Assembly: GCF_014279795.1 (NCBI RefSeq)
Contig: NZ_CP047945.1
Location: 2,066,572-2,130,571 of the forward strand
Reading direction: 5' to 3'
Length of the DNA stretch: 64,000 nucleotides
From: Synechococcus sp. PROS-7-1
Lineage (GTDB): Bacteria; Cyanobacteriota; Cyanobacteriia; PCC-6307; Cyanobiaceae
The position numbers and the translations under genes are program-made. The notes under the pieces were generated by a model. That model did not search any database. It was given only the letters and a program-made list of their open reading frames with translations, and was not told the origin of the DNA. Every line of letters starts with the position of its first letter. Positions within the stretch are counted from its first letter, which is position 1. Below are positions 1,454 to 52,333 of the stretch, in pieces.

Positions 1454-3097
1454 GTGATGAACAAACGCCGGCACGCTTTGATTCACGGCTTCAGCTGGAA
1501 CCATTGGCGTGGCGATCTCTCTGGTGGGCTGACCGCGGCGGTGGTGGCACTGCCCCTGGCGTTGGCTTTTGGCAATGCCGCCCTTGGTCCGGGAGGAGCG
1601 ATCTATGGGCTCTATGGAGCCATCGTGACGGGGTTTTTCGCGGCTCTGCTCGGGGGAACGCCGGCCCAGGTCAGCGGGCCGACGGGCCCGATGAGCGTCA
1701 CCGTGGCCGGTGTTGTGGGCAGCCTTGCGGCCGTTGGCGTCAGCCGTGAACTCAGCAGCGGGGAGCTGCTGCCGCTGGTGATGGCCGCCGTGGTGATCGG
1801 AGGACTCTTTCAGATCCTGATGGGAGCGATGAGGCTCGGTCGCTACATCACGCTTGTGCCTTATTCGGTGGTCTCCGGTTTCATGACCGGCATCGGGGTG
1901 ATCATCCTCTGCCTGCAAGTCGGCCCCTTGCTGGGAATCGCCAGCCGCGGCGGCGTGTTGCAATCGCTGCAGATGGTGCTCACAGAGTTCAGCCCCCAGC
2001 CGGCGGCGCTGTTGGTGGGTGCCGCCACCCTGCTGGTGGTGTTCGGCTGTCCGCGACGGCTCAGCCAGGTGATCCCGTCGCCTCTGCTAGCTCTTGTGCT
2101 GATCACGCCGCTCTCGCTGTGGCTGTTTCCGGAGCAGCTGCCGCGCATCGGCACCATCCCGGAGGGGGGACTGACCTTCACCTTGCCGAATTGGCAGGAG
2201 CATCTGCCGGTTCTGCTTCGGGCTGGATTGGTGATGGCCCTTCTTGGAGCGATCGATTCGTTGCTCACCTCCTTGGTTGCCGACAACATCAGCCACACAC
2301 GGCATCGATCCGATCGCGAACTGGTCGGCCAGGGCATCGCCAACAGCGTGGCCGGACTCTTCGGCGGGCTGCCAGGTGCAGGGGCCACGATGCGCACGGT
2401 GATCAACATCCAATCCGGAGGACGCACCCCCCTCTCGGGGATGACCCACTCGATCGTGTTGCTGGTGCTGCTTCTGGGCGCCGGACCTCTGGCCGAAGGG
2501 ATCCCCACGGCCCTGTTGGCGGGAATCCTGATCAAGGTGGGCGTCGACATCATCGACTGGGGGTTCCTGCGCCGCGCCCACCGCCTCTCCTTCAAGACAG
2601 CTTTGGTGATGTGGGGTGTTCTGCTGATGACAGTGTTTTGGGACCTGATCGGCGCCGTGCTGGTGGGAATGTTCGTGGCCAACCTGCTCACGATCGAGTC
2701 CCTCACCGCCCATCAGCTCGGCACCATGAACCAGCACCAGGAACCGCTGAACGCTGAAGAGCAAACCCTGCTAAAACGCTGCGGCGATGATCTGATGCTG
2801 TTCAGACTGCAAGGGCCTCTGAGTTTTGGTGCAGCCAAAGGCATCAGTGAGCGAATGATGTTGGTACGGCAATACCGAATCCTTCTGCTGGACATCACGG
2901 ATGTCCCCCATCTCGGGGTCACGGCCAGCCTGGCGATCGAGCGCATGGTGCAGGAGGCGGCGCAACACGATCGACAGGTGCTCGTAGCCGGTGCAGCCGG
3001 CAAGGTGAAACACCGGCTTGAGCTCTTCGGCATTCCATCTCTCGTTGATACGCGCCTCGAGGCTTTACGTGAAGCCGATCAGCGCCTCAACAGTTGA
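1454..3097 (+). CDS. SulP-family anion transporter with STAS domain (BicA-like)
   Basis: 547 aa. Around twelve hydrophobic segments fill residues 20-420, beginning with the SulP-type stretch DLSGGLTAAVVALPLALAFG and the conserved QVSGPTGPMSV. A cytoplasmic STAS domain occupies about 435-540. The family includes sulfate carriers and the cyanobacterial low-affinity Na+-dependent bicarbonate transporter BicA; the N-terminal motifs and length (BicA is about 560 aa) resemble BicA, but substrate cannot be proven from sequence. The start is GTG 1454 or ATG 1457. Adjacent, probably same-operon, thioredoxin-like gene upstream; convergent with arsH, 10 bp away. Confidence 0.88.
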   Translation: MMNKRRHALIHGFSWNHWRGDLSGGLTAAVVALPLALAFGNAALGPGGAIYGLYGAIVTGFFAALLGGTPAQVSGPTGPMSVTVAGVVGSLAAVGVSRELSSGELLPLVMAAVVIGGLFQILMGAMRLGRYITLVPYSVVSGFMTGIGVIILCLQVGPLLGIASRGGVLQSLQMVLTEFSPQPAALLVGAATLLVVFGCPRRLSQVIPSPLLALVLITPLSLWLFPEQLPRIGTIPEGGLTFTLPNWQEHLPVLLRAGLVMALLGAIDSLLTSLVADNISHTRHRSDRELVGQGIANSVAGLFGGLPGAGATMRTVINIQSGGRTPLSGMTHSIVLLVLLLGAGPLAEGIPTALLAGILIKVGVDIIDWGFLRRAHRLSFKTALVMWGVLLMTVFWDLIGAVLVGMFVANLLTIESLTAHQLGTMNQHQEPLNAEEQTLLKRCGDDLMLFRLQGPLSFGAAKGISERMMLVRQYRILLLDITDVPHLGVTASLAIERMVQEAAQHDRQVLVAGAAGKVKHRLELFGIPSLVDTRLEALREADQRLNS

Positions 3098-3107
3098 AGC
3101 ATCCGCC

Positions 3108-3814
3108 TCATTGGCCTTCGGTGATGGCAGCGATGCCCATGCGCTGCTCAAGCATCTGCGCCGTCTCCTCACGCTCACTGAAACGATCCGCCAGCAAGCG
3201 CTGATTGGAACGGATCAGAACGGTGAAACGAATCAATTCCTCGCACACATCAATTAAACGCTCGCGATACGAGGAGTGCAGTGCTTCATCGTGCAGTCGT
3301 CGTTGAATTCAGCTGTGGAGCGAGGAACACTGCTCTGATTCGGGATGCAGATCATGCGCATCCAGCGACCAAGAATTCGAAGACTATTCACGGTATTAAA
3401 CGACTGAGACCCGCCCGATACCTGCGCGAGAGCAAGAGTTTTCCCTTGCGTGGGTCTGGAGGCGCCACTCTGAAGCGGGATCCAGTCGATCTGATTTTTG
3501 AAAACACCACTGAGATTTCCGTGCAGTTCTGGTGAACACCAGAACTGCCCCTCCGACCAAGCCACCAAGTCCCTGAGCTCCTTCACCTTCGGATGATCCG
3601 ACAACTCAGAGTCAAAAGGGGGAAGATCATGGGGATCAAACACCCTGACCTCAGCCCCCATGGCCTCAAGGATGCGCTGGGCCTCCAGGGTGAGGCAGCG
3701 CGAGCAGGAGTTGACACGCAACGAGCCATACAGGGCAAGGATTCTTGGCCGGTGAGTGATCGCTTGAACGGGCTGGAACTGCTCGAAGGAAGGAACGGGT
3801 GGGTAGGAAACCAT
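3108..3814 (-). pseudogene. arsH: arsH (NADPH-dependent FMN reductase family), frameshifted
   Basis: The upstream part, from ATG 3814, carries ArsH hallmarks: [77 protein letters not shown]. The frame then ends early after [11 protein letters not shown]. The missing C-terminus continues in another frame as [21 protein letters not shown] to AAITEGQ, with stop at 3108. The break coincides with a tandem pair AGTGC AGTGC at 3275-3284. Removing one 5-bp unit restores M-K-H-S-S-Y-R-E-R and gives 233 codons, a normal ArsH length. ArsH proteins oxidise organoarsenicals or reduce quinones and azo compounds. It is either a recent pseudogene, a contingency site, or an assembly error. An in-frame start at 3907 exists but lacks homology. 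Confidence 0.87.
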
Positions 3815-3816
3815 TG

Positions 3817-3840
3817 ATTCATCAACCAAACTTGATGAAT
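3817..3840 (-). promoter_or_regulatory. candidate ArsR operator (9-bp inverted repeat) at the arsH start
   Basis: ATTCATCAA (3817-3825) and TTGATGAAT (3832-3840) form a perfect inverted repeat around a 6-nt spacer. It contains ATCAA-N6-TTGAT, the form I recall for the Synechocystis ArsR site in front of arsBHC (recalled from the literature, not checked). It sits two bases upstream of the arsH ATG, so bound repressor would cover the translation start region. No arsR gene is in the window. Confidence 0.6.
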
Positions 3841-4008
3841 TCAGCCTTACCGGTCTTGGCTTGTATCGCCATGAGGGTGCCCGAACCCCATGGGCGTGGA
3901 ACCGCACTCGAGCTCAGAAGCCGCAGCAGTTAGAGAACAAGAACCATCGCAACAGCCTGAGGCCGACCTCGGGCTTCCGATCTAAACCACACAAAGGTGC
4001 ATTCACCC

Positions 4009-7074: not shown

Positions 7075-7289
7075 AAGCGGACATCAAGTTGCCAACGTTG
7101 ACGCCAGCTGCGAGAGGGGGGATATGGATCAGTGACCTGGAGCGACCTGCTGGGTGAAAGGTGAGTTGACAGCAGGCAACACATACCCCGCCATTGCTGA
7201 CGCACTACTGTTACTTAATTGAAGAAAATTGTGCCAGGTATTGGAGGCTGAATGATGGCTCTTATTGGTCTATTGAAGAAATAAATGAT
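7075..7289. other. non-coding gap with an inverted repeat at its right end
   Basis: No convincing gene is visible. The sequence is AT-rich near 7200-7300. AATGATC (7284-7290) and GATCATT (7299-7305) form a 7-bp inverted repeat around TATAATAG, overlapping the stop codon of the minus-strand beta-barrel gene at 7290-7292. It could be a weak transcription end or regulatory element. Confidence 0.4.
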
Positions 7290-8255
7290 CTATAATAGGA
7301 TCATTGGGATTTCGTGAAAATCGATCAGCCTAGCGGCAGGGGGGTCAGCAACACGCACATCCCTTCTCTTTACGCTCTCAGTTAATGCCTTAATCGTTGG
7401 CTTCTCCCACGCTTTCTTCTGCTTCTCGCTTTGCGAAATTCCTGCTGTATTAAAACGCCACTTGATGTCAGCGGAGAAGCGAGTTTCAAAGGCTTCGTCG
7501 TAGGAGAGATTGGCACCAATGGATAGGTCATTGTTGATGGCATATGCCAAACGACCCAAGACGCCAGATCCATCTGCTTCCCCTGCATCGCCGTTTTGGT
7601 AGTAGTAACCAATAGATGCTTTTAGGGCTGGCGTGATGTTGTAACCAGCATCCAAGCCAAAGGTATCCAGTGCTCCAGCGTTGTAGAACCAGTTGACCTT
7701 CTGCTCGGTATCACCCGTTGGGATGAGCGCATAAGCATTGAATGCCCACTTATCGCTCACCGCTTCTGCATTCACAGCAGCCTGCTGGAAGAAAACAGTT
7801 TTCTCAGTACCAAATAGTGGGACACCTGTGTCGGCATCACCCGTGCTCATTGGTCGGGTGTCATAGCCCGCATTCAGTCCATACATCCAACTGCGGTCGC
7901 CATTGAGCCAGCGATAGCCCAGACGGGATGAGGTGGAGATGGTGGTGCCAGCAACGGTGGTGTTGATGATGCTGCTGTAGTTGTTGAAATCAGCGAAGTT
8001 GGCGTTGGCGAGCACGTCAGCAAAGAAGACGCTGTTGTCTCGAACGACGAGGGGAAGGAAGCCACCAATCCCTGCCTGGTTGGGGGTGCCAGCAGCTTGG
8101 GTCTGCCCTTGGATGCCAACGCGTGGCTTGATGACGTCTTTGAGGCTGATGCTCATGACGCCAAGGTCGCCTGCACTGCCCTCTTGGGCATTGAGAGGCA
8201 GAGGCGCCATTGCAACAGCAAAAGCCAGAAGACCAATGGTGAGGCGGCGGAGCAT
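7290..8255 (-). CDS. outer-membrane beta-barrel protein (inverse-autotransporter/porin-like)
   Basis: About 321 aa from ATG 8255 (an upstream in-frame ATG at 8291 adds 12 basic residues). Signal peptide MLRRLTIGLLAFAVAMAPLPLNA with a cleavage site after LNA. The body is strongly beta: STSSRLGYRWLNGDRSWMYGLNAGYD, VSDKWAFNAYALIPTGDTEQ, FGLDAGYNITPALKASIGYYYQNG, LSIGANLSYDEAFETRFSADIKWRF. The GYR/GYD strands resemble inverse-autotransporter (intimin-type) barrels found in marine Synechococcus. After the terminal WRF strand there is an unusual charged tail of about 50 residues (SEKQKKAWEKPTIKALTESVKRRD) ending MILL. No passenger domain is present. Confidence 0.7.
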   Translation of the reverse strand: MLRRLTIGLLAFAVAMAPLPLNAQEGSAGDLGVMSISLKDVIKPRVGIQGQTQAAGTPNQAGIGGFLPLVVRDNSVFFADVLANANFADFNNYSSIINTTVAGTTISTSSRLGYRWLNGDRSWMYGLNAGYDTRPMSTGDADTGVPLFGTEKTVFFQQAAVNAEAVSDKWAFNAYALIPTGDTEQKVNWFYNAGALDTFGLDAGYNITPALKASIGYYYQNGDAGEADGSGVLGRLAYAINNDLSIGANLSYDEAFETRFSADIKWRFNTAGISQSEKQKKAWEKPTIKALTESVKRRDVRVADPPAARLIDFHEIPMILL

Positions 8256-8485
8256 CAAGCGGAGGCGGAGACAAAGTTTTATCCTTCCCATGCAGTCAAG
8301 CCACCGCTGCGCCCATCTGCCAGTCCTTTAGGCGGTCATCTTCCGCAACCATCAACATCTTCGGCACGAAGGGATAGGAGCAGCTCCTGCAGCAACGCGA
8401 TGGTCATCTGCGTGTCGAGGGTCATTGGTCTGGCGCAACTGCTGAAAGCATTCCCCGCTGGAGCAGCTGATGGAGGGCGGCTGGG
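8256..8485. other. intergenic gap between beta-barrel gene and small ORF
   Basis: No supported gene. A 29-codon minus-strand reading frame starting MTLDTQMTIALLQELL (ATG near 8425) is the only tidy small ORF, without further support. The gap should hold the promoter of the beta-barrel gene. Confidence 0.3.
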
Positions 8486-8775: not shown

Positions 8776-9036
8776 ATGAGTCATTTGGGTGATAAGGCTG
8801 ACTTCACCCCATCTCCCCTAAGGGTCAGGCAGCAACAGGGGCTGCTTGACGGGAGAAACGAACGATGTTGTTCGCAGTTACGGGTTTGCTCTCACCGAGC
8901 AGGCTTCAGTCACCCTCCTCATGCCCCGTCGAAACCATTGCAGCCCCGGAAAGGGAGAAATGGAGCTGAGCGGAATCGAACCGCTGTCCGAAACACTGGT
9001 GTGGATCACCTAGTCCGGAAGATCCGGACACTGCCA
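8776..9036 (-). ncRNA. ssrA: tmRNA, two-piece circularly permuted (ssrA)
   Basis: Minus strand. The acceptor piece comes first: it ends with the T-arm GGTTCGATTCCGC and acceptor strand CAGCTCC plus discriminator A at 8961. A 13-nt intervening segment (8948-8960) follows. The coding piece starts at 8947 with GGGGCTG, which pairs with the acceptor strand (one G-U), and continues with TTTCGACGGGGC. The resume frame runs from GCG 8875 to TGA 8825 and encodes ANNIVRFSRQAAPVAA, the picocyanobacterial tag. CCA is not encoded. A GTCCGGAT/CTTCCGGAC hairpin opens the acceptor piece. This arrangement is known in Prochlorococcus and marine Synechococcus. The outer ends are estimated. Function: rescue of stalled ribosomes. 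Confidence 0.95.
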
Positions 9037-28471: not shown

Positions 28472-30406
28472 ATGGCCACCCGCCAGCCCCTCTCCGCCCG
28501 TCAAGCACTCGGGAGGCAACCCTCCCTAAAAGCACCCAGGATTCTCGGCGACTGGCTGCTGTGGCTCGAGCAGCGCCCGCAGGAGAAAGGCCGCACAACG
28601 GCCCTGCTGCGGCGATGGGGACAGCCTGATCAGCCGCCACTGGAATTAACGCCGGCCCCCTGCAACCTGCGTTGCCGGATCCACGAATACGGCGGCGGCG
28701 CCAGTGCGGCGGCCCTCCTCAATCATGGGCTCCTTTTCACCTGGGTCGATGGCAGCGATGGCTGTCTGTGGGCCCGATCCTGGAGCGGACTGTCTGGCGC
28801 AGACCCTCGATCGGTGGTGGCGGAAGGACCTGCCAGGCGCCTGACGGCCCCGGGAGATGGGCTGCTGGGCGGTGGGGTGATTGATCCGAAGCGGCACCGC
28901 TGGATCGGCGTGATGGAGCGGGGCGGGCGGGACGACCTGGTGCATGTGGCGCTCGACGGCCTGGATCAGACGCCAGTGATCCTGCACCCCGCGGCGGATT
29001 TTGCGGGATACCCCGCCATCAGCCCTGATGGAGACCAGCTCGCTTGGGTGGAGTGGGAACAACCCGCCATGCCCTGGGATGCCGCTGCACTGCGCTGGGC
29101 ATCCATCGACGCCAATGGTGATCTCGGCACCGTTGACATGCTGGCCGGGAGCACACCAGGGGCTGCGCGTCCAACCTCCGTCTTCCAGCCGCTTTGGCTT
29201 CCTGATGGCCAGTTGGTCGTGGCGGAAGACGGCAGTGGCTGGTGGAATCTGATGCGGCACCAGAATCCCTGCGACCCCTCGCAGAGCTGGGACCGACGCT
29301 GGCCCATGCAGGCGGAGACGGCGATGCCGCAATGGGTGTTCGGCATGAGCACCACAGCCTGGGATGGTGAGCAGCTGCTCGCCGCAGTGTGCGCTGACGG
29401 CCGTTGGCAGTTGAAGCGGCTCAGCGCCGATGGCTCGGTCAGCGTGGTGGACCAACCTTTCGACGACCTTGCGGAGCTGGATGCCGACGCAGGCCGTGCC
29501 GTGGCGATCGCCAGCAACAGCGCGACCGGGCAGGGGCTGTTGGAACTACACATGGCCAGTGGACGCTGGAGCCATACGCCGGCTTCAGACGCGGTGTTGG
29601 AGCCCGAGCACGTCAGCATCGCCGAACCCCTCTGGTTCGAGGGAGCGGCCGGCCGGCGCACCCACGCCTGGTACTACCCGCCCAGCGGGGGCATCTCGCC
29701 GAACACGCCCCTGCTAGTGAAGAGCCACAGCGGTCCTACCGCCATGGCTCGCCGCGGCCTCAGCCTCGGCATTCAGTTTTGGACCACCCGCGGCTGGGGC
29801 GTGGTGGATGTGAATTACGGGGGCTCCACTGGGTTCGGGCGGGATTACCGCGAACGACTCAACGGTGAATGGGGCGTGGTGGATGTGCAGGACTGCGCCG
29901 CGGCGGCGCAAGCCGTGATCGCCAGCGGACGCGCCCACCCGCAGCGGGTGGCCATCGAAGGGGGCAGCGCCGGCGGCTTCACAACCCTGGCCTGCCTCTG
30001 CTTCACGGATGTCTTTCAGGTGGGGGCCTGCCGTTATGCGGTCAGCGACCTCATGGCGCTGGCCTCTGAAACCCATCGCTTCGAGGCCCGCTATCTCGAC
30101 GGTCTGGTAGGCGCATGGCCCCAGGAACGCGCTCGTTATCAGGAGCGTTCACCCCTGCACCATGCCGACCGCATCCGCTGTCCGGTGATCTTTTTCCAGG
30201 GTCTGCAGGACAAGGTGGTGGTGCCGGAGCAAACGGAGCGGATGGCAGCGGCCCTACGCAGCAACGGGGTTCCCGTGGAGGTGCGCACCTACGCCGAAGA
30301 AGGGCATGGCTTCCGAGACAGTGCCGTGCAGGTGGATGTGCTCGAGGCAACGGAAGCCTTCTTCCGCCATCACCTCAGGCTCGATCAACCTGAAGGGATG
30401 ACCTAA
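28472..30406 (+). CDS. S9-family serine peptidase (acylaminoacyl/dipeptidyl peptidase-like)
   Basis: 644 aa. A beta-propeller N-terminal half (about 40-390, with many Trp/Asp repeats such as GYPAISPDGDQLAWVEWEQP) gates the alpha/beta-hydrolase domain. The catalytic Ser is in EGGSAGGFTT near residue 498, with Asp in QGLQDKVVVPEQT near 579 and His in EEGHGFRDS near 610. It cleaves short peptides; the exact specificity is unknown. Its stop overlaps the 3' end of the convergent TAP-like gene by 4 bp. Confidence 0.92.
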   Translation: MATRQPLSARQALGRQPSLKAPRILGDWLLWLEQRPQEKGRTTALLRRWGQPDQPPLELTPAPCNLRCRIHEYGGGASAAALLNHGLLFTWVDGSDGCLWARSWSGLSGADPRSVVAEGPARRLTAPGDGLLGGGVIDPKRHRWIGVMERGGRDDLVHVALDGLDQTPVILHPAADFAGYPAISPDGDQLAWVEWEQPAMPWDAAALRWASIDANGDLGTVDMLAGSTPGAARPTSVFQPLWLPDGQLVVAEDGSGWWNLMRHQNPCDPSQSWDRRWPMQAETAMPQWVFGMSTTAWDGEQLLAAVCADGRWQLKRLSADGSVSVVDQPFDDLAELDADAGRAVAIASNSATGQGLLELHMASGRWSHTPASDAVLEPEHVSIAEPLWFEGAAGRRTHAWYYPPSGGISPNTPLLVKSHSGPTAMARRGLSLGIQFWTTRGWGVVDVNYGGSTGFGRDYRERLNGEWGVVDVQDCAAAAQAVIASGRAHPQRVAIEGGSAGGFTTLACLCFTDVFQVGACRYAVSDLMALASETHRFEARYLDGLVGAWPQERARYQERSPLHHADRIRCPVIFFQGLQDKVVVPEQTERMAAALRSNGVPVEVRTYAEEGHGFRDSAVQVDVLEATEAFFRHHLRLDQPEGMT

Positions 30407-31893
30407 GGCAAAGCCTGCAGATCTTTAGCGGGCTCGTAGGCACAAACCTGATCCTGCTCAGGAACCCTGGCCGTCAACAAATAGTCGGTGACAGCGCTCT
30501 CCACACAATTCGACTGAGCGTTGAGATAGATGCCGTGTTCATTCCCGACAACCTGCAACGTCCTCATTGAAGGGAACGCTCGGGCCATCTCCGTCGACCA
30601 TTGCCAGGGAGTTGCCCCATCCCAGCTCGATCCAGTGATCAATCCGGAAACATTGAGGCCATTGAATGGAGCACGTGGAATGGACGCGCTGGCCGGCAGC
30701 TCCTCATAGCCACTGCAGATGGCAAGAAAATTCACAGCCAGCGATCCCCCGTAAACAGGAGCGCGACGCGTCAGTTCCGACAGACCACGGCGTTGAGATT
30801 GCATGTCAGGACGCTGCGGAAAGTCCTGACAGACAACAGCAGCGAATCCTGCTGCAGCGTTCCCATCCACGGGCTCACTCCGAAAAACAGGTTGCTGAAG
30901 ATCCGCCAGCGCTTCCGCCCGTTGCGTTCCGCTGCTGAACAGGGCCTGATCCACGGTCACGATCAGCGTGCGTCCATAACTTCCTGCCAAGCGTGAAATT
31001 GGGAGGAACTGAATGAGGCGATCCAAAAAATCCCAGCGCGTGTAAATCGAGCCATCGGGCAGCCGCAACGACTGGCGCTCGAGCGACTTCAACGCGCGAT
31101 GAAATTTGAACGACAGGTCTGGGTTGGACTGCAAGAAAAAACGGAGACTGTCATCCGGGGCGAGACTGGACTGACTCAGGCCGACTAAATCCAGCCAAGG
31201 GCTCACGTTGCCATCAAGCACAAGAGCTCTGACCCGGTTTGGGAACAGCGCGGCATAGGTCGAGCCGATGACGGTTCCGTAGGAAACACCCCAGAACGTG
31301 AGTGTCGGGTCACCGACCGATGCCCGCAAGGCTTCAAGGTCATGGACTGTCTCCACAGTCCCCATGCCCTGAATGAGCTCCCGATGTCTCACGATGCAGT
31401 CCCGGTTGGCCTCAGCCAACTGCTGCTGTCGGGTCATCAGCACCTGATCCCAGGTGACCCTGCCAATGGCCGGTCGCTGGGGCATGCCCACCGAGCAATT
31501 CTCAAGTGCGGGCGAAGACTGACCAATGCCACGCGGGTCCCAGGTGATGAAATCAAACGAGCGACGGATGGCATCAGGTAGCAACAGCCCTTTCCAGGCA
31601 CTGCCGTGGCCCGATTGTCCGGGGCCTCCGGGATTGAAAAACAACGTTCCAATTTTCTGATCAGCAGGCCCGGTAGCCGGCAACCGGAACACAGCCAGGT
31701 CAACCTGAGGCCCGTTTGGATTCCTATGGCGAAGCGGTCGCTTCAAGGTGGAGCAATCAAAGCCCTGCTTGGCAAGCCTCTCCAGCCGACATGGCCCCCA
31801 CTGCAACCCCTCCACATCGCCTGCTACTGCCTGAACAGACGATGTCAATCCCGCCAACACAAGCAACGGGAGTAAATCCTGCAGAGTCCGCAT
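30403..31893 (-). CDS. exported alpha/beta hydrolase, TAP-like (tripeptidyl aminopeptidase family)
   Basis: 496 aa from ATG 31893 (ATG 31923 adds ten residues). A hydrophobic N-terminus (LLPLLVLAGLTSSVQAVAG) suggests export. TLFFNPGGPGQSGHGS is the oxyanion-hole region, the nucleophile lies in FWGVSYGTVIGSTYAA near residue 203, and a TAP-like C-terminal domain ends VVGNEHGIYLNAQSNCVESAVTDYLL, with the catalytic His. Streptomyces homologues release tripeptides. Here it may process periplasmic peptides; substrate is inferred only. Confidence 0.87.
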   Translation of the reverse strand: MRTLQDLLPLLVLAGLTSSVQAVAGDVEGLQWGPCRLERLAKQGFDCSTLKRPLRHRNPNGPQVDLAVFRLPATGPADQKIGTLFFNPGGPGQSGHGSAWKGLLLPDAIRRSFDFITWDPRGIGQSSPALENCSVGMPQRPAIGRVTWDQVLMTRQQQLAEANRDCIVRHRELIQGMGTVETVHDLEALRASVGDPTLTFWGVSYGTVIGSTYAALFPNRVRALVLDGNVSPWLDLVGLSQSSLAPDDSLRFFLQSNPDLSFKFHRALKSLERQSLRLPDGSIYTRWDFLDRLIQFLPISRLAGSYGRTLIVTVDQALFSSGTQRAEALADLQQPVFRSEPVDGNAAAGFAAVVCQDFPQRPDMQSQRRGLSELTRRAPVYGGSLAVNFLAICSGYEELPASASIPRAPFNGLNVSGLITGSSWDGATPWQWSTEMARAFPSMRTLQVVGNEHGIYLNAQSNCVESAVTDYLLTARVPEQDQVCAYEPAKDLQALP

Positions 31894-31954
31894 GTGCACT
31901 CTGTTCAGCAGCATCCCCGTCAACCTTCTCTCAACAGTGGTTAGCAGGAATCAA

Positions 31955-32623
31955 TCACTGGGACAGTCCATGCGACTGGCCGTAATGGAGTCCACGGAAC
32001 TGGGCATGAACCGCCTCCATCTGTTCCGAGCTCAGCAAAGGCGGTTCCCCGAGCTGAAGAGCCTGCAGGTACATCCGAGCCAAAGTCTCCACCTCCACTG
32101 CGATGCTCAAGGCCTGATCAAGGCTTTCACCGGCAGTCACAAGACCATGCCTGGCCAAGAGGCAGGCCTTCCGATCGGCCATTGCCTCCACCGTGAACCG
32201 CGAGAGATCCTTCGTACCGAAGGTGGCGTAGGGCGCACAGCGGATGTCGTCGCCGCCGGCAACCGCAGTCATGTAGTGGAACGGGGGAATGCCCCGATCG
32301 TGACAGGCAAGCGCAGTTCCATGGATCGGATGGCAATGCAACACCGCCTGAAGCTCTGGCCGAGCCGCAAGCACATCCGCGTGCAGGCGCCATTCGGACG
32401 AAGGGCGCCGACGACTCTCGGCCGAAAGCGATCCATTGAAATCGATCGCCACCAAATCATCAGACTCCATCTGCTCGTAAGGCAACGAGCTGGGTGTGAT
32501 CAGCAAGCCACCGGGAATGCGGGCGGAAAGATTGCCGGAGGTGCCCTGGTTAAGCCCCGAGGCATTCATACGCCTTGCCAACACCACCATCTGCTCACGC
32601 AGCGCCTGTTCAGGCATTCGCAT
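31955..32623 (-). CDS. class II aldolase, fuculose-phosphate-aldolase/Ald2-like
   Basis: About 222 aa from ATG 32623 (ATG 32617 also possible); a start at 32647 would overlap mtnA more. SGNLSARIPGGLLITPSSLPYEQM at about 30-55; zinc ligands in VLHCHPIHGTALACH; and AGGDDIRCAPYATFGTKDLSRFTVEAMADRKACLLARHGLVTAG, which is much closer to L-fuculose-1-phosphate aldolases than to MtnB dehydratases. Its overlap with the end of mtnA implies coupling. With MtnA it could cleave 5-methylthioribulose-1-phosphate (or 5-deoxyribulose-1-phosphate) to DHAP plus an aldehyde, as Ald2 does in the DHAP shunt of Rhodospirillum and E. coli (established elsewhere). Confidence 0.8.
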   Translation of the reverse strand: MRMPEQALREQMVVLARRMNASGLNQGTSGNLSARIPGGLLITPSSLPYEQMESDDLVAIDFNGSLSAESRRRPSSEWRLHADVLAARPELQAVLHCHPIHGTALACHDRGIPPFHYMTAVAGGDDIRCAPYATFGTKDLSRFTVEAMADRKACLLARHGLVTAGESLDQALSIAVEVETLARMYLQALQLGEPPLLSSEQMEAVHAQFRGLHYGQSHGLSQ

Positions 32624-50357: not shown

Positions 50358-52016
50358 ATGACCGCATCCGCCTCGGCCGAACCGACGCACACCCTTGTTC
50401 GTCTGGACGCTCCCTTCACTGATCAGAAACCCGGCACGTCCGGACTGCGCAAAAGCAGCCGCCAGTTCGAGCAACCGCATTATCTGGAAAGCTTCGTTGA
50501 GGCCGTGTTCCGCACCCTGCCAGGGGTTCAGGGCGGCACCTTGGTCCTTGGGGGCGACGGTCGCTACGGCAATACCCGGGCGATCGACGTGATTCTGCGC
50601 ATGGGCGCAGCTCACGGTCTCAGCAAGGTGATCGTCACCACCGCTGGCATCCTCTCCACTCCAGCGGCATCCAACCTGATCCGAAAGCGTCAGGCCATCG
50701 GCGGCATCATCCTCTCGGCCAGTCACAACCCGGGTGGTGCCGATGGGGATTTCGGAGTGAAGGTGAACGGTGCCAACGGAGGCCCGACCCCTGCCTCCTT
50801 CACGGATGCCGTCTTCGAGTGCACCAAGACTCTCGAGCAATACGCCATCGTTGAGACCCAAACCCCCAGCCTTGAGGCCCCCGGGAAGCATTCCATCGGC
50901 GCCATGGACGTGGAGGTGATCGATGGCGTTGATGATTTCGTGGAGCTGATGCAGCAGCTTTTCGATTTCGATCGGATCAGCGACCTCATCCGCGGCGATT
51001 TTCCCCTGGCCTTCGATGCCATGCATGCCGTGACCGGCCCCTATGCCCGTCGCCTGCTGGAAGGACTGCTCGGTGCACCGGCTGGAAGCGTGCGCCATGG
51101 CACACCCCTCGAGGACTTCGGCGGTGGACACCCCGACCCCAACCTCACCTACGCCCATGAACTGGCGGATCTCTTACTGAATGGCGATGGCTTCCGTTTC
51201 GGTGCGGCCTGCGACGGCGACGGTGATCGCAACATGATCCTGGGCCAGCGCTGCTTTGTGAATCCAAGCGACAGCCTGGCTGTGCTCACCGCCAACGCCA
51301 CGGTGGCACCGGCCTATGCCGGCGGACTCGCCGGTGTGGCGCGCTCCATGCCCACAAGTGCTGCGGTGGACGTGGTGGCGAAGGATCTCAACATCGACTG
51401 CTACGAAACTCCCACGGGCTGGAAGTTCTTCGGCAATCTTCTCGATGCCGGCAAGATCACGCTCTGCGGTGAAGAAAGCTTCGGCACCGGCAGCAACCAT
51501 GTGCGCGAGAAAGATGGCCTCTGGGCCGTGCTGTTCTGGCTGCAGATCCTGGCCGAACGCCGCTGCAGCGTGGCCGAGATCATGAACAACCACTGGAGTC
51601 GTTTTGGGCGGCACTATTACTCCCGCCATGATTACGAAGCCGTTCCCAGCGACGCGGCCCATGGTCTTTACGACCGATTGGAAACCATGCTGCCCTCGCT
51701 CGCGGGACAGTCCTTTGCAGGTCGCAGCATCAGCAGCGCTGACAATTTCAGCTATTGCGATCCGATCGACAAGTCCGTGACGAAAGGGCAAGGACTGCGC
51801 ATCCTTCTCGAAGACGGCAGCCGGGTGGTGGTGCGTCTCTCGGGTACCGGCACCAAGGGGGCCACGATCCGTGTGTATCTAGAGAGCTATGTCGCGAGTG
51901 GCGGCAACCTCAACCAGGATCCTCAGATCGCCCTTGCGGACATGATCAGCGGCATCAATGCTCTGGCTGAGATCAAGACGCGCACCGGCATGGACAAGCC
52001 CACGGTGATCACCTGA
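50358..52016 (+). CDS. pgm: phosphoglucomutase (alpha-D-glucose-type)
   Basis: 552 aa. N-terminus FTDQKPGTSGLRKSSRQF; the phosphoserine loop GGIILSASHNPGGADGDFGVKVN near residues 115-137 (Ser in ASHNP); the metal loop GAACDGDGDRNM near 282-292; the sugar loop TLCGEESFGTGSNHVREKDG near 370-389; and the phosphate-binding RLSGTGTKG near 490. It interconverts glucose-1-phosphate and glucose-6-phosphate for glycogen and cell-wall sugars. Followed by a clear terminator. Confidence 0.97.
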   Translation: MTASASAEPTHTLVRLDAPFTDQKPGTSGLRKSSRQFEQPHYLESFVEAVFRTLPGVQGGTLVLGGDGRYGNTRAIDVILRMGAAHGLSKVIVTTAGILSTPAASNLIRKRQAIGGIILSASHNPGGADGDFGVKVNGANGGPTPASFTDAVFECTKTLEQYAIVETQTPSLEAPGKHSIGAMDVEVIDGVDDFVELMQQLFDFDRISDLIRGDFPLAFDAMHAVTGPYARRLLEGLLGAPAGSVRHGTPLEDFGGGHPDPNLTYAHELADLLLNGDGFRFGAACDGDGDRNMILGQRCFVNPSDSLAVLTANATVAPAYAGGLAGVARSMPTSAAVDVVAKDLNIDCYETPTGWKFFGNLLDAGKITLCGEESFGTGSNHVREKDGLWAVLFWLQILAERRCSVAEIMNNHWSRFGRHYYSRHDYEAVPSDAAHGLYDRLETMLPSLAGQSFAGRSISSADNFSYCDPIDKSVTKGQGLRILLEDGSRVVVRLSGTGTKGATIRVYLESYVASGGNLNQDPQIALADMISGINALAEIKTRTGMDKPTVIT

Positions 52017-52042: not shown

Positions 52043-52068
52043 AGCCTCCCGCCAGGGGGGCTTTTTTT
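52043..52068 (+). terminator. terminator after pgm
   Basis: AGCCTCCC (52043-52050), loop GCCA, GGGGGGCT (52055-52062), then TTTTTT. The minus-strand stop of the next gene (52067-52069) overlaps the T tract. Confidence 0.88.
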
Positions 52069-52333
52069 ATTTGCGACGACCGCGCTGCTTGTGGTGATAC
52101 TCCTTTTCAGGTGATGCTTCCTGAAGTTGGCGCATGCTCTCGATGGATGAGCCGAACAGGGCCGCCGATGCCACCACGACGCCGTAGAGATAGGTGAGGC
52201 GATTGTTGGACAGATCCGCAGGGGTGTTGCGAATGAAGGTTTCGAGGAAAAACGCGAGCACAAGGCCGATTCCTGCACCGATAAACGCCGACCAAAGCAC
52301 TTTGAAGCCATTGAATTCTGGAGGCTGGCTCAT
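52067..52333 (-). CDS. small membrane protein, last gene of RND operon
   Basis: 88 aa with two membrane helices (VLWSAFIGAGIGLVLAFFLETFI and YLYGVVVASAALFGSSIESM) and a basic tail (KEYHHKQRGRRK). Its ATG overlaps the RND transporter stop (52330-52333), so translation is coupled. It could be an accessory subunit like AcrZ, but its size and topology differ; function unknown. Confidence 0.6.
   Translation of the reverse strand: MSQPPEFNGFKVLWSAFIGAGIGLVLAFFLETFIRNTPADLSNNRLTYLYGVVVASAALFGSSIESMRQLQEASPEKEYHHKQRGRRK

Follow-up and report, generated by a model that had tools for sequence, protein, structure and literature searches.

We find that arsH of Synechococcus sp. PROS-7-1 is put out of frame by a 5-bp tandem duplication, and we consider it probable (roughly 0.8) that this is a real and recent inactivation, one instance of repeated arsH loss within a single clade. 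A replication error would have duplicated five bases in tandem inside the gene and so cost it its frame, leaving the cell with, at most, a 186-residue protein that would lack the fold's final helix and the tail that contacts the neighbouring subunit. A search of the genome (2,565,218 bases, one contig) gave no second ArsH match, and the cell would thus have no working ArsH. In this clade arsH would be only weakly needed and in the course of being lost more than once. Short tandem duplications give rise to recent frameshift pseudogenes in bacteria, and the PROS-7-1 gene resembles that class in being open but for a single small duplication of non-triplet length, without essential difference. The break looks like ordinary recent gene loss and not like a new mechanism.

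The window referred to below is the whole stretch of DNA analysed, 64,000 nucleotides, and the features at arsH are collected in Table 1. On the plus strand, positions 3275-3284 read AGTGCAGTGC, which is GCACT twice in tandem on the coding strand. An earlier note on this DNA had placed such a pair at the very point where the ArsH frame is lost, and we confirm it there. The note had also claimed that removing one copy would restore an ArsH of 233 codons running to the stop at 3108, and this is borne out by the 178 codons before the break and the 55 after it. Read from the ATG at 3814, the last normal residues, ending with the 178th, are MKH. The 55 residues missing from the shifted protein are still open in another frame, which ends in ITEGQ and the TGA at 3108, and the other two frames over this 3' remainder hold 3 and 4 stops.

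Profile searches place both parts in ArsH (TIGR02690; structures 2q62, 7ple and 2fzv), of the NADPH-dependent FMN reductase family PF03358, and the two parts cover nearly the whole ArsH model, the first matching profile positions 12-181 (E 9.6e-81) and the second 183-219 (E 1.6e-11). The scores are 270 bits for the retained part, 271.2 for the open reading frame as it reads, and 270.5 and 42.1 for the two frames. The gene departs from the family in that its frame is broken after residue 178, with 55 of 233 residues lost, and the broken protein falls below the curated whole-protein cut-off of 292.25 bits. The FMN-phosphate motif GSxRxxS, described for ArsH in section 3.2 of PMC9137774, is present in the translation as GSLRVNS, in the family's form GSLRxxS. 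The FMN_red domain (PF03358) is kept nearly whole, at profile positions 1-149 of 152, and the conserved C-terminal segment (R184...R213) is encoded in the DNA out of frame.

Table 1. Features at the arsH locus of PROS-7-1, in window coordinates.
Feature	Position	Strand	Remarks
SulP-type anion transporter (Sulfate_transp + STAS)	1454-3097	plus	flank used for synteny
arsH, broken	3108-3814	minus	ATG at 3814, original TGA at 3110-3108; 233 codons, stop and 5 extra bases
Current arsH frame	3254-3814	minus	178 ArsH residues, then 8 foreign residues (CTPRIASV) and stop; 186 aa
Out-of-frame C-terminal part of ArsH	3108-3278	minus	final helix of the fold, and tail
GCACT-GCACT, frame-shifting 5-bp tandem duplication	3275-3284	minus	from the sequence and the alignment with relatives
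ACTGCAC, copy of seven junction-spanning bases	3291-3297	minus	possible template-switch donor

A tandem 5-mer pair is not in itself evidence of an event. The window contains 71 perfect non-homopolymer pairs of this length, where 50 first-order simulations of it give an expectation of 86 ± 13, and about one is expected by chance in a gene of the size of arsH. Because such pairs are no commoner than chance, it is the comparison with relatives, and not the repeat, that serves as evidence. Intact ArsH of 233 aa is encoded at the same locus in Synechococcus WH7803 (CT971583.1) and in the congener G006, in each case with five bases fewer. When the three genes are aligned, the additional five bases occur in PROS-7-1 only and the gene is otherwise gap-free. 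WH7803 reads MKHSAYRER and G006 MKDSSYRER at the site, both continue to a stop after 233 codons, and both pass TIGR02690 (331.0 and 332.9 bits). The WH7803 gene lies, like that of PROS-7-1, beside SulP, with 99% identity over the retained 178 residues, and differs from it in being intact and in having a single GCACT; G006 has no perfect copy of the unit. Around arsH (3001-4000, 995 aligned bases) PROS-7-1 and WH7803 are 95.5% identical. The lesion is thus private to PROS-7-1, both relatives having the orthologue intact at this locus. According to the earlier note, its reading would be refuted by close relatives whose arsH is intact at an unchanged spacing, and this is the case in neither of the two intact relatives found.

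Of the three options that the note had left standing, the evidence most favours a very young pseudogene, given the open remainder, the intact orthologues without the extra five bases and a locus that is decaying in two sister lineages. A reversible slippage site finds no support. The tandem units are of non-triplet length and lie inside a coding sequence, as they would in a contingency locus where frequent changes in unit number switch arsH on and off, but phase-variable loci have several units in an array, and here there are two, with one in WH7803 and no perfect unit in G006; the array is not conserved, and the 64-kb window holds no perfect 5-mer array of at least three units. We regard such a switch as very improbable. 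There is a similarly slim chance that the length of the two-unit site still changes frequently; the population would then hold both ArsH-plus and ArsH-minus cells, with arsH as a reserve gene in a clade that is otherwise losing it. Ribosomal frameshifting, which could yield full-length ArsH from the shifted gene and in whose favour the downstream frame is still open to the original stop, deserves even less credence: by eye, the site has no slippery run of the form X-XXY-YYZ, the motif of ribosomal frameshifting, and neither intact relative has the insertion, which so bears no sign of long selection.

As to how a recent duplication could have arisen, ACTGCAC lies six bases upstream of the GCACT pair on the coding strand, and a brief template switch to this copy may, tentatively, have made the duplication. 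The 7-mer was picked out post hoc. When 22,038 comparable duplications were simulated in the window, direct donors of at least seven bases turned up by chance in 1.3% of cases within 15 bp, 1.9% within 20, 2.9% within 30 and 4.8% within 50, and the rate rises to 3.4-9.6% when inverted donors are allowed.

A second alternative left by the note, that the additional GCACT unit arose by error in sequencing or assembly and arsH is intact in the strain, is weakened by our comparisons and seems to us unlikely, though clearly less so than the switch or the frameshift. The difference is indeed a single one of 5 bp in a gene otherwise open to its normal end, and arsH carries fewer substitutions than a long-dead gene would show. 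Alignment of the window to some 80 kb from WH7803 and as much from G006 covered about 61 and 57 kb of it, respectively. Raw gaps against WH7803 number 105 (94 non-triplet; 56 in the 87 kept frames, which include overlapping doubtful ones, and 22 of those longer than 1 bp) and lie mostly in diverged clusters, WH7803 being the more distant relative; against G006 there are 36 (27 non-triplet, 7 in kept frames, 3 of those longer than 1 bp). Since raw gaps are this numerous, we relied on indels seen alike in both comparisons and on split open reading frames. Seven indels are private to PROS-7-1 in both comparisons, across the roughly 57 kb aligned to both relatives; only the arsH insertion exceeds 1 bp. 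Of the six 1-bp indels, two fall inside predicted frames, one at 8960 in a doubtful frame and one at 52068 where a frame ends. The duplicated unit, moreover, is not a homopolymer, and the same gene carries other lesions in sister lineages.

In the split-frame test, frames of at least 100 aa from the relatives, spurious ones included, were searched for in the window. With WH7803, 170 had a match, 149 whole in one frame and 5 split, and with G006 168 had a match, 155 whole and 5 split. Only arsH and a small frame near 52067 are split against both. In the latter, a minus-strand frame at 52067-52333, an extra T in the T-run at 52067-52068 ends the frame earlier than in either relative, which is how a homopolymer error would look and to that extent favours an error in arsH as well. 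The relatives' longer frame continues over the opposite gene at 50358-52016, and this may be no real break; it could be a real difference, a spurious frame or a homopolymer error. Together the two tests lower the chance of an assembly error at the arsH site without removing it, and an assembly error or a mutation acquired in culture is possible there.

The same alignments show the window to be a mosaic. Most of its first 12 kb is nearer to WH7803 (91-95% identity, against 87-93% to G006), and later blocks are nearer to G006 (90-94%, against 86-88% to WH7803). Two stretches fall outside the aligned blocks of both relatives. One, at 30385-31975 (about 1.6 kb), is absent from the aligned stretches, where its flanks lie about 21 bases apart, and carries one gene, a 506-aa alpha/beta hydrolase (30403-31923, minus strand). 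The other, at 7095-8483, holds a 333-aa open reading frame (7290-8291, minus strand) with no Pfam match at E 0.001.

The substitutions in arsH bear on the age of the break. With G006 as outgroup, changes in the PROS-7-1 lineage number 6 nonsynonymous and 8 synonymous, and those in the WH7803 lineage 3 and 6. This choice of outgroup is doubtful at each gene, and most so beyond about 12 kb, since the closer relative of PROS-7-1 is WH7803 in most of the first 12 kb and G006 in later blocks. The proportion of 6 in 14 is below neutral expectation (a nonsynonymous fraction of 0.72-0.77; P 0.006-0.02) and slightly above that of six of the seven neighbouring genes pooled, DnaJ being left out (38 of 179; P 0.057, Fisher 0.09), in a test that is small and in which two of the six nonsynonymous changes share one codon. 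No such nonsynonymous excess is seen in the WH7803 lineage (Fisher 0.70), and codons 201 and 205, which changed in PROS-7-1, are variable in the ArsH family. This pattern would fit a break late on the branch.

AlphaFold predicts for WH7803 ArsH (18 sequences, mean pLDDT 70.2, pTM 0.73) a 30-residue helix at 180-209, with block pLDDT of 82 and 79 over 181-200 and 59 over 201-210, and a second, weakly supported helix at 214-224. Because the frame is lost after residue 178, the break would remove the last long helix. Among the best 80 of 517 homologues, 16 of the 36 columns at residues 179-214 are at least 95% conserved, and R184, D187, V188, E190-L192, F195-T196, R200, R209 and S211-R213 are identical in all 79 homologues other than WH7803. 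All 80 alignments, WH7803 included, reach at least query residue 214; in eight a stop sign appears, probably beyond the end of the gene. Section 3.2 of PMC9137774 describes the Paracoccus ArsH monomer as having five strands and five helices, with the C and N termini making a structure that binds the neighbouring monomer, and the same source treats this ArsH as an organoarsenic reductase. In Synechocystis, the passages of PMC4284471 that concern ArsH present it as an NADPH-FMN reductase whose part in arsenic resistance is not clear. From the truncation we infer a loss of ArsH function, and since the FMN_red match is retained, residual FMN binding is conceivable.

The arsH locus was surveyed across the genus by tblastn of WH7803 ArsH on the SulP loci with up to 1.5 kb on either side. 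The C-terminal part of SulP was found in 30 of the 31 genomes, and one match (G015) is only a 46% identical paralogue, which leaves 29 true flanks. At these, ArsH is split in two in PROS-7-1, intact in WH7803 and G006, and present as remnants in G009 and G029; the other 24 loci gave no ArsH match at E 1e-3 or better within this range. By SulP, the five genomes with arsH or a remnant of it are most similar to one another: their nucleotide identity is 79.5-92.4%, and that to three further genomes used for comparison is 68.6-75.4%. Both remnants adjoin the same SulP and small gene. That of G009 is interrupted by TGA and TAG stops and by several deletions, and that of G029 has a large internal deletion, with the upstream region and a short 3'-end piece kept. 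The 5-bp duplication is missing from G009, and in G029 the site itself is gone, so we take the PROS-7-1 break to be separate from these losses. An imperfect 12-bp tandem duplication (ATTGATCTCTGC ATTGATGTCTGC) lies in the decayed G009 gene (L030, 1804-1827), 3' of the homologous site at a distance of a few tens of bases.

Searched genome-wide, the ArsH family has matches in 4 of the 31 genomes and passes its cut-off in 2. Other cyanobacterial arsH genes also look broken: one (L029, in G114) is in two parts about 6.6 kb apart, one of them with a TAG, and another (L007, in G092) has an internal TGA. In a midpoint-rooted tree of 64 of 65 rows, with L007 left out and only 40 of the 79 non-WH7803 homologue loci given, the clade's arsH forms a long branch (1.36) of its own, separate from the other cyanobacteria. 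Relatives of ArsH occur on three viral contigs, at 59-62% identity.

We considered whether other genes might cover the loss. Two further FMN_red genes of PROS-7-1 (genome positions 2417728 and 2419175) did not come up among the ArsH matches, and the loss is therefore uncovered at the level of sequence. A loss of the whole arsenic pathway was rejected: acr3 is open (375 aa) and an ArsC-family gene is present. Within the genus, acr3 occurs in 10 of 31 genomes, including all five of the arsH clade, and an ArsC-family gene in 29 of 31; for arsM, none of the 31 had a match over the cut-off, only weaker methyltransferase matches being found. A scan for promoters and terminators returned nothing above chance, and the literature matches listed include no paper on arsH of marine Synechococcus.

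The arsH break of PROS-7-1 is a clean example of an early step in gene loss, and its main use is in correct annotation. One locus in one clade presents arsH intact in two genomes, freshly broken in one and decayed in two. ArsH has a role as a methylarsenite oxidase, and the strains of this clade could be compared to ask whether ArsH matters to marine Synechococcus under methylated arsenic or quinone stress.
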